Of a stretch of DNA of 64,000 nt, positions 32,881 through 33,965 are shown piece after piece (position 1 is the first letter of the stretch; each line of letters begins with the position of its first letter). A model generated the notes under the pieces. It had not been told where the DNA came from. It saw only the letters and a program-made list of their open reading frames with translations, and ran no database searches. The stretch comes from Saccharobesus litoralis (GTDB lineage Bacteria; Pseudomonadota; Gammaproteobacteria; Enterobacterales; Alteromonadaceae). The stretch covers positions 4,566,065 through 4,630,064 of the forward strand of contig NZ_CP026604.1 in assembly GCF_003063625.1 (NCBI RefSeq), read 5' to 3'. Both the position numbers and the translations under genes were made by a program.

Positions 32881-33013
32881 TCTCTTCTCTCAAAATATAA
32901 AAACGCAAAATGCTAAACACAAAACGTAAAAAAGCCATGACACTTTATACCCATACATTTTAGGTAAATAAAGCTGTCACGGCCTCAAATAAAACAGTAA
33001 GTAGCTGTCATGT

Positions 33014-33189
33014 ATAGTCAAAGCGATCAGGTTTTAGGGGCAGGTTTCTAGTTCCAGACGAAACCTAAGTACCTACATCCATGTAGGCAAAGCCGTCAAG
33101 CTTCGAGACCCCATGAGCATATGCTCTATTATGTGATTGGGGCGAGTAAGCGCTGACAATGAACCATAAGACCTGAGCGAGAAGACTAT
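33014..33189 (+). mobile_element. Interspersed MITE-like repeat, copy C (176 bp, long form)
   Basis: Long form with TAGTC...GACTA ends, flanked on both sides by TA. Nearly identical to copy B. It fills half of the 359-bp gap between the precursor gene and the DUF692 gene. The rest of that gap is A/T-rich without a gene. Confidence 0.86.
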
Positions 33190-33239
33190 ATAAAGAAACT
33201 ATAAAAACAACTACTTTTAATAAATACGCGAGCGACTAC

Positions 33240-33734
33240 TTAGCTTTTACCGCCGCACTTACCTTCGCCGCACTTGCCTTCTTTTTTAGCTTTGCCGCCA
33301 CACTTACCTTCGCCGCACTTGCCTTCTTTTTTAGCTTTGCCGCCACACTTACCTTCTCCGCACTTTCCTTCTTTGTTGGCCTTGCCGCCACATTTACCTT
33401 CGCCGCACTTGCCTTCTTTGTTGGCCTTGCCACCACATTTACCTTCGCCGCACTTGCCTTCTTTTTTGGCCTTGCCACCACATTTACCTTCGCCGCACTT
33501 GCCTTCTTTTTTGGCTTTGCCACCACATTTACCTTCGCCGCACTTGCCTTCTTTTTTGGCTTTGCCACCACATTTACCTTCGCCGCACTTACCCTCAGCC
33601 ATTTGTAACTGGTAACCAGCGTCTAAATCTTGCATTGTAAATGGCGCAGCTGAAGCCGGTGCTGATACCGCCAAAGAACCTACCATTACTGCACCTACAG
33701 TTGCTGCTACTGAATTTTTTTTGAATGCGCTCAT
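33240..33734 (-). CDS. HvfA/BufA-like precursor with 16 EGKCG motifs
   Basis: A 164-aa exported precursor. Residues 1-30 form a Sec-type signal peptide (SAPASA before the mature start). A short spacer (about 30-46, PFTMQDLDAGYQLQMA) may be the recognition leader. The rest is eight units of the type EGKCGEGKCGGKAKK (15 residues; Asn in place of Lys in units 4 and 5; the last unit shortened), giving 16 EGKCG motifs and 16 cysteines. In Haemophilus HvfA the Cys of EGKCG is modified by HvfB/HvfC into a copper-binding group, so a metal-buffering or metallophore role is inferred. The ribosome site AAGGTAA is good. Confidence 0.9.
   Translation of the reverse strand: MSAFKKNSVAATVGAVMVGSLAVSAPASAAPFTMQDLDAGYQLQMAEGKCGEGKCGGKAKKEGKCGEGKCGGKAKKEGKCGEGKCGGKAKKEGKCGEGKCGGKANKEGKCGEGKCGGKANKEGKCGEGKCGGKAKKEGKCGEGKCGGKAKKEGKCGEGKCGGKS
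33253..33594. repeat. 45-bp coding tandem repeat in the EGKCG precursor
   Basis: Eight near-identical units of 45 bp (15 codons). Silent differences exist between units (for example GCC/GCA and AAG/AAA changes), so not all units are the product of a very recent copy event. In-frame expansion or contraction is easy. Confidence 0.9.
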
Positions 33735-33791
33735 TTGAATTACCTTTTCAATTGTGTCATGTGAATGATTAATATGTCGTTATTGTAAAAG

Positions 33792-33803
33792 ACCCTAAAG
33801 GGT
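33792..33803. promoter_or_regulatory. Palindrome ACCCTAAAGGGT upstream of the EGKCG precursor
   Basis: Perfect inverted repeat of ACCCT/AGGGT with a 2-bp spacer, about 58 bp before the start codon. On the minus strand it lies between TTAATT and TACAAT, 19 bp apart, a spacing seen with MerR-type regulators. This is suggestive only. Confidence 0.3.
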
Positions 33804-33965
33804 TTTAATTAATTTCAAGATTTTTTACAAATTAAAGATTTTGGCCAAAATATAAGGAGTTTTTTTCTTGTAAATCAATGACCAAGAACAATAGGTAAGA
33901 TTTTAGATAAAGTGAAGGAACAGAGCCAGATTATTTTCTGACTCTGTATTAAGTAAAGGTACAAA

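Follow-up and report, generated by a model that had tools for sequence, protein, structure and literature searches.

The window analysed here, a stretch of 64,000 nucleotides, carries a three-gene locus, hvfABC, that very probably belongs to the HvfA/oxazolin (EGKCG captophorin) type of copper peptide system, a kind that has already been described. Our study adds a probable control circuit to this locus, and we consider it likely that the two form one whole, hvfABC making a copper-sequestering peptide and an unlinked ECF sigma factor, paired with a DUF3379 protein, acting as its switch. The circuit is well supported at the level of sequence, by a promoter-like motif that the ECF sigma gene shares with hvfA and by the co-occurrence of this motif with DUF3379. 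ECF control of such peptides is not new, to judge from RpoE2 (PMC7907618), whose target cluster we take to be hvf, and from the sigma/NrsF genes of Buf1 clusters (PMC12452194); a link of such peptides to a sigma of this type, to this promoter or to DUF3379 was not found in the open-licence literature.

The EGKCG precursor and its predicted maturation enzymes

The features on which we rely are collected in Table 1. The initial annotation had described a signal peptide, a short spacer and eight units with 16 identical EGKCG motifs, and the sequence agrees: HvfA contains exactly 16 EGKCG motifs and 16 cysteines, every cysteine lying inside a motif, and each unit consists of EGKCGEGKCG followed by a spacer, the spacers between these pairs being made of Lys, Gly and Ala. 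Seven units are 15 residues long and the final one ends in GGKS. The protein starts with KK, a hydrophobic stretch and ASA/A, read from the sequence as a predicted signal peptide, and a short leader (PFTMQDLDAGYQLQMA) lies between this signal-like start and the units. The pattern [F/G/N/A]-x3-7-[L/M/V]-x2-[G/A]-[Y/F], a loose one counted without a chance control, is found in the leader of 105/105 intact precursors of the family, and the leader may be the site that HvfC recognises. The tandem array (Tandem Repeats Finder: period 45, 7.4 copies, 96% matches, score 566) is far beyond chance. Identity is 0.94 among the first motifs of the units and 0.91 among the second motifs, against 0.80 between first and second; synonymous codons thus differ between the two motifs of a unit, which indicates that the duplicated block is the 45-bp pair and not the 15-bp motif.

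Table 1. Features of the hvf locus in the window and of the regulatory gene pair elsewhere in the genome
Feature	Position	Strand	Basis or remark
hvfA-type precursor, 164 aa, 16 EGKCG	33240..33734	-	NF050137, 116.6 bits (cut-off 19.5)
Predicted Sec signal peptide, residues 1-29	33648..33734	-	read from sequence
Conserved post-signal leader PFTMQDLDAGYQL	33606..33644	-	candidate HvfC recognition site, role inferred
Eight EGKCGEGKCG units, 45-bp period, residues 47-164	33243..33596	-	repeat analysis
hvfB, MNIO (DUF692) maturase, 282 aa	32032..32880	-	NF003818, 438.9 bits (cut-off 360)
hvfC, DUF2063 + NGO1945_C partner, 250 aa	31283..32035	-	NF050145, 303.9 bits (cut-off 142); 3DEE
178-bp dispersed MITE-like element, TATAGTC...GACTATA ends	33013..33190	.	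between hvfA and hvfB
Putative ECF-sigma-type promoter TGAAATTAATTAAAACCCTTTAGGGTC	33791..33817	-	56 nt before hvfA ATG; motif conservation
ECF sigma gene	L278:4884-5450	-	NF009170, 292.2 bits (cut-off 197); PF04542 + PF08281
ECF sigma/DUF3379 pair	L278:4168-5450 (G000:C1:3355667-3356949)	-	profile matches

The proposed identity of HvfA, HvfB and HvfC is borne out by NCBIfam matches and by conserved catalytic residues. The HvfA repeat domain is well above its family cut-off (Table 1), and the NCBIfam cut-off of the full-length HvfA equivalog NF050188 is missed (78.4 vs 95 bits), so that the precursor is filed in the EGKCG family and not as an HvfA equivalog. HvfC combines PF09836 and PF22106 (DUF2063 and an RRE-like domain), and among proteins of solved structure HvfB best matches 3BWW by sequence, and HvfC 3DEE. 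For HvfB of Haemophilus influenzae, N175, D242 and H244 are reported as essential, with HvfC required for the enzyme to attain its active mixed-valent diiron state (PMC13419390). By our own mapping through the 3BWW alignment, these three residues correspond to N176, D219 and H221, which, together with H63, H98, E142, H205 and E248, are invariant across the alignment of 119 HvfB proteins (a frequency of 1.0 among aligned sequences having a residue at that position); missing active-site ligands, named beforehand as a finding that would speak against the assignment, were therefore not encountered. The closest named hvfB match is that of Marinifaba aquimaris (72%), in a search that may omit the window's own genome.

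In characterised relatives, the cysteine of EGKCG is converted to a 5-thiooxazole with the loss of 4 Da each, and the modified products bind Cu (PMC12668002, PMC13419390, PMC12538549). By analogy with these relatives, HvfA of the window would undergo the same chemistry, bind copper and be exported, and the earlier suggestion of a copper-binding or metal-buffering RiPP remains the best reading in light of the experiments on relatives (PMC12668002, PMC13419390, PMC12538549). The oxazolin system HvfABC(X) of nontypeable H. influenzae has a signal peptide like the one predicted here, the same EGKCG pairs and catalytic residues, the same MNIO HvfB and the same DUF2063/RRE HvfC, but its precursor has 6 motifs where ours has 16, and no DoxX gene is linked to the locus here. 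The Buf_EGKCG/oxazolin family of about 2,000 proteins likewise has two EGKCG per repeat in variable number and an MNIO + DUF2063 pair, with a unit quoted as 17 residues against 15 here (PMC12452194). Fontiphorin FonABC and other captophorins have EGKCG repeats that MNIO + PME1 convert to 5-thiooxazole, as predicted here, FonA having seven modified sites compared with the 16 EGKCG of HvfA (PMC12668002/PMC13097082). Bulbicupramide MmrABC of the marine gammaproteobacterium Microbulbifer has the same kind of EGKCG precursor with Lys-rich spacers and the same MNIO/DUF2063 pair, its precursors carrying five to eight Cys, against 16 here (PMC12538549).

The initial annotation had also placed the DUF692 gene and its overlapping DUF2063 partner after the precursor and next to it; the order and the overlap (4 bp between the hvfB and hvfC reading frames) hold, but the close spacing does not, hvfA and hvfB being 359 bp apart. 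This gap is the longest of 110 loci (median 63, next longest 222) and is explained by the 178-bp element, without which it would be 181, within the range of relatives. The genome contains at least 40 copies of the element, whole or split (40/406 candidates scored); copies at 19 aligned loci are 95-99% identical over at least 176 bp, and in some copies an insert interrupts the element after position 131. Its transcript is predicted to fold strongly (-60.1 kcal/mol, z -4.2), and part of the element presumably resembles ERIC elements. The neighbouring genes are tRNA genes downstream of hvfC and, upstream of hvfA, a PstS-like small protein (matches below model cut-offs), a porin, a 3-keto-disaccharide hydrolase-like protein and an AraC regulator, none of these upstream neighbours being obviously about copper. 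DoxX/HvfX is a frequent but not universal member of such clusters; none is encoded near hvfABC, and the two DoxX genes of the genome are distant, even the closer one lying some 250 kb from hvfC.

Motif number and predicted fold of the repeat

To place the precursor among its relatives, we screened 246 genomes from the same GTDB family and found HvfB over cut-off in 118, giving 119 loci (two in one genome), with a precursor at 110 and none at 9, of which 5 have less than 620 nt of upstream sequence. After five truncated or masked precursors were dropped, 105 intact ones remained, the window's included. These contain between 2 and 26 KCG motifs (median 10), with at least 16 in 13/105 and more than 16 in one; by exact EGKCG count, 10/105 have at least 16. 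A Pseudoalteromonas member of the Buf_EGKCG/oxazolin family is reported to have 58 Cys, repeat number being variable (PMC12452194). The expectation that 16 motifs would be unusual for an HvfA-type peptide is not supported by these figures, the number being high but not special. We also considered a ceiling of 16 motifs, which 12 precursors have exactly and one, with 26, exceeds; the published 58-Cys protein contradicts it. The longest precursor of the set (L153, genome G031) has 288 aa and 25 EGKCG in near-identical 18-residue units.

Both the number and the length of the units vary among related species, the modal unit being 15-18 residues in 51/101 precursors with at least two pairs and exceeding 30 in others, which indirectly supports the idea that capacity may be tunable through the number of 45-bp units. 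Changes in the 30-nt EGKCGEGKCG module are all silent. Its identity is 0.886 for units of one gene (86 genes), 0.860 for genes of the same genus (211 pairs) and 0.853 between genera (3444 pairs), and it is higher within than between genes in 160/211 same-genus pairs. This signal of concerted evolution is weak, and we claim nothing past lineage-specific turnover of units. The second hvf locus of one genome (L145, G160) encodes a short EGKCG precursor followed by a sequence that looks EF-hand-like by eye, apparently the EGKCG/EF-hand type of PMC12452194, and four loci (L112, L166-L168) have HvfB over cut-off and full upstream sequence with no EGKCG precursor detected by pattern, possibly serving other substrates.

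A beta-helix that would line up the cysteines inside has been proposed for the family from AlphaFold2 models of 17-residue repeats (PMC12452194), and we regard such a fold as very improbable for HvfA. AlphaFold2 run on the single sequence, without an alignment, gave HvfA a mean pLDDT of 62.5 and a pTM of 0.47, whereas an out-of-frame control ORF, 33236-33571(-), a non-natural translation of hvfA's own DNA repeat, reached 71.5 and 0.63 with regular beta repeats. A meaningless sequence thus scores above HvfA, so that an AlphaFold2 beta-solenoid carries little weight for such repeats; run without an alignment, the comparison tests the method on these repeats and not the PMC12452194 model itself. 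AlphaFold2 has also been reported to predict spurious solenoids when given perfect repeats (PMC11795689), and the modal unit length of relatives varies widely, mostly from 15 to more than 30 residues, which also argues against a regular helix. The peptide is probably unstructured until metal binds, and AlphaFold2 solenoids for the EGKCG family call for caution.

A promoter-like motif shared with an ECF sigma/DUF3379 pair

The sequence TGAAAT...GGTCT was first noticed by eye upstream of hvfA and then counted. In the form TGAAA-N17/18-GGTC, it precedes hvfA at 77/99 family loci (the window's included) and in 22/27 genera, compared with a mean of 0.42 and a maximum of 4 loci in 100 dinucleotide shuffles. 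The gap from TGAAA[TAC] to GGTC[TA] is exactly 17 nt in 62 loci, and any other spacing between 10 and 25 occurs in at most 2. From the end of GGTC to the assigned hvfA start codon, the distance has a median of 55 nt (range 19-181), and a purine lies 10 nt past GGTC in 66/71 main-spacing sites, as expected for a putative transcription start. In the 64 kb of the window, 33791-33817(-) is the sole match of the TGAAA-N17/18-GGTC type, with 0.44 expected, so the single site proves nothing alone and it is conservation that carries the argument. Across a one-per-genus set of 59 genomes, the strict motif stands some 200 nt upstream of the first EGKCG unit among the matches listed in at least 16 of the 35 genomes with an EGKCG precursor in that listing, the window's own included and two of them outside the family. 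Palindromic operators were considered for the same region and rejected, each of three simple patterns, one of them CueR-like, being found before hvfA at 2/99 loci at most.

In the window's 5.87-Mb genome as a whole, TGAAA-N18-GGTCTW occurs at 7 sites, vs 10 for the reversed pattern, and the strict TGAAATW-N16-GGTCTW at two, one belonging to an ECF sigma gene and the other to hvfA (reversed control, 1). Both strict sites lie outside ORFs, the first 51 nt and the second 56 nt before the ATG of its gene; a third TGAAA-N18-GGTCTW site (L258) lies 41 nt upstream of a possible ATG. The ECF sigma gene, of the PRK12517 type, is 1.2 Mb from hvf and overlaps a DUF3379 gene (PF11859, 252.1 bits), and DUF3379 is found in 202/246 family genomes, nearly always as a single copy. 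Among the best 30 of the 202 DUF3379 matches, NGAAA-N18-GGTC precedes the ECF gene in 30/30 loci, our own included, a descriptive count, the pattern having been set after viewing the ECF sequences and lacking a separate shuffle control. The first base gives 17 CGAAA, 7 TGAAA, 5 GGAAA and 1 AGAAA, and the TGAAA form (7/30) compares with a shuffle mean of 0.13. At most ECF loci, the motif sits inside an extended reading frame, where constraint on the encoded protein may contribute to the conservation seen, and a start 10 nt past GGTC would coincide with an internal ATG. The ECF sigma may thus be autoregulated through a promoter shared with hvfA.

The presence of the motif before hvfA follows that of DUF3379. 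The comparison covered 106 hvfA loci, 13 of the 119 having been set aside (9 that lack a precursor and 4 with too little upstream sequence), and the motif is found at 78/92 loci from genomes with DUF3379 vs 1/14 from genomes without it, the one exception being L163 (Fisher p 1.5e-8, a value for species that are not independent and uncorrected for phylogeny). The 14 loci without DUF3379 represent four genera, one of which supplies 8; within a single genus (g18), the motif is absent in 3/3 loci without DUF3379 and present in 7/7 with it. Another 14 loci lack the motif in DUF3379 genomes, 8 of which have an [ACG]GAAA variant and six no variant at all. In several relatives, the ECF/DUF3379 pair lies near hvf, as in G149 (DUF3379 at C19:203525, hvfB at C19:206479) and, within about 10 kb, in G231, G134 and G246.

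Taken together, these data suggest that the ECF sigma is probably linked to the hvfA promoter motif. The peptide system could be just as described while another sigma factor or regulator reads the motif, the ECF/DUF3379 pair being merely another of its targets; the genome has 19 sigma-70 region-2 matches, and a shared motif indicates co-regulation rather than the identity of the binder. We judge this unlikely because a looser form of the motif stands at 30/30 ECF genes examined and hvfA is mostly without it where DUF3379 is absent. A bipartite, non-palindromic motif of fixed spacing is also ECF-like, and ECF genes are often self-driven, both of which favor the ECF sigma as the reader.

We found no publication on DUF3379/PF11859 and no mention of PRK12517 in the open-licence literature. 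The only NCBIfam match of DUF3379 is an anti-sigma model, far under its cut-off (18.1 vs 100), and no solved structure matches by sequence (best E 0.2). Its N-terminal part is charged, a single hydrophobic segment spans residues 82-100, and the C-terminal part conserves H116 (30/30), H119 (28/30), C160 (30/30) and H169 (30/30). From the gene pairing and this layout, we infer that DUF3379 would be the anti-sigma of the ECF sigma; that it also senses a metal or thiol is a more tentative idea. Other systems offer precedents of a different make. Caulobacter bufferins are thiooxazole copper-binding RiPPs under SigF/NrsF control, and so likewise pair such a peptide with an ECF sigma, but they have a DUF2282 precursor and a linked sigma/anti-sigma of another type. 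RpoE2, an ECF sigma of H. influenzae, is reported to be held by HrsE, to respond to HOCl and to control a DoxX gene cluster (PMC7907618) that we take to be hvf; HrsE is a 67-aa cytoplasmic protein, in contrast to DUF3379. Sigma/NrsF genes are described in Buf1 clusters and as absent from Buf2 (PMC12452194), in a survey that spanned five genes on either side, to which the regulator proposed here, being unlinked, would be invisible.

Candidate regulon and proposed circuit

In 35 family genomes of the 59-genome set, strict sites number 68, against 34 for the reversed pattern, so about half of single strict sites are expected by chance. We viewed 29 strict-motif loci, one per genome given one: 9 lie inside an ORF of at least 100 aa, 7 are followed by an EGKCG precursor and 11 by another ORF, and 2 fit none of these cases. 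Ten of these 11 ORFs were scanned (all but L327), yielding CutA1 (two), DsbD, two thioredoxin-like proteins and two AhpC/TSA-redoxin proteins whose starts look signal-like; the other three are a solute-binding protein, a DUF4426 protein and one that matched no family. A looser motif precedes 21 of the best 30 family CutA1 loci (L338-L367), namely 21/26 in DUF3379 genomes and 0/4 in genomes without it, all four of one genus. The motif region of these cutA genes overlaps what we take to be a probable divergent heat-shock promoter, that of fxsA, by its consensus. The window's own cutA has no such motif, and we do not count CutA1 as part of the window's system, its support lying in relatives only. 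CutA1, DsbD, redoxin and thioredoxin-like genes would fit an envelope metal/thiol-stress regulon, the most speculative step of our reading.

A second precursor type, with KGKCGEGKCGE-like repeats and a leader without the GY motif, was seen at L008, L017, L023-L025, L027, L028 and L031. None of the eight genomes concerned has HvfB over cut-off. The strict promoter motif also stands at the precursors of this type in G001, G003, G007 and G013, and at the precursor of G012.

A unifying model based on these data would run as follows. HvfC, the RRE partner, would bind the signal/leader region of HvfA, and HvfB, a multi-iron oxidase, would turn the EGKCG cysteines into 5-thiooxazoles, at a cost of 4 Da each and 64 Da for all 16; Sec would then export the modified peptide, which would bind excess Cu(I) in the periplasm. 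Transcription of hvfA would be turned on by the unlinked, autoregulated PRK12517-type ECF sigma, held by DUF3379 as a membrane anti-sigma whose presumed periplasmic H-x2-H/Cys/His cluster is a candidate metal or thiol-redox sensor.

The same chemistry could serve the opposite purpose, that of a chalkophore like methanobactin taking up scarce copper rather than buffering an excess, since modified EGKCG peptides bind Cu(I) and the Microbulbifer authors are reluctant to assign a protective role (PMC12538549). We find this quite improbable, given that HvfA is a repeat peptide with a predicted signal peptide, beside which family models recognise no transporter, that related clusters are induced by excess copper, gold or oxidative stress (PMC13097082), and that the strict-motif genes of relatives (CutA1, DsbD, redoxin, thioredoxin-like) fit envelope stress. 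We therefore retain copper sequestration as the most likely function of the peptide.

Should the circuit operate as proposed, it suggests a function for a DUF present in 202/246 genomes of the family. Going further, and on balance rather doubtfully, DUF3379 may represent a new class of membrane anti-sigma that senses copper or thiol oxidation, its ECF sigma commanding a conserved envelope-stress regulon of marine bacteria, with the EGKCG peptide in most genera having it and cutA/dsbD and periplasmic thioredoxin-like genes in some. The mmr peptide of Microbulbifer was not detected in proteomes of copper-supplemented cultures and protected E. coli only slightly (PMC12538549), and for peptides that stay silent under plain copper addition the circuit offers a way to search for the inducer. 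With its regulator 1.2 Mb away, such a circuit would be missed by genome mining based on gene neighbourhood, and it would explain how a widespread copper-binding peptide of marine bacteria is switched on.
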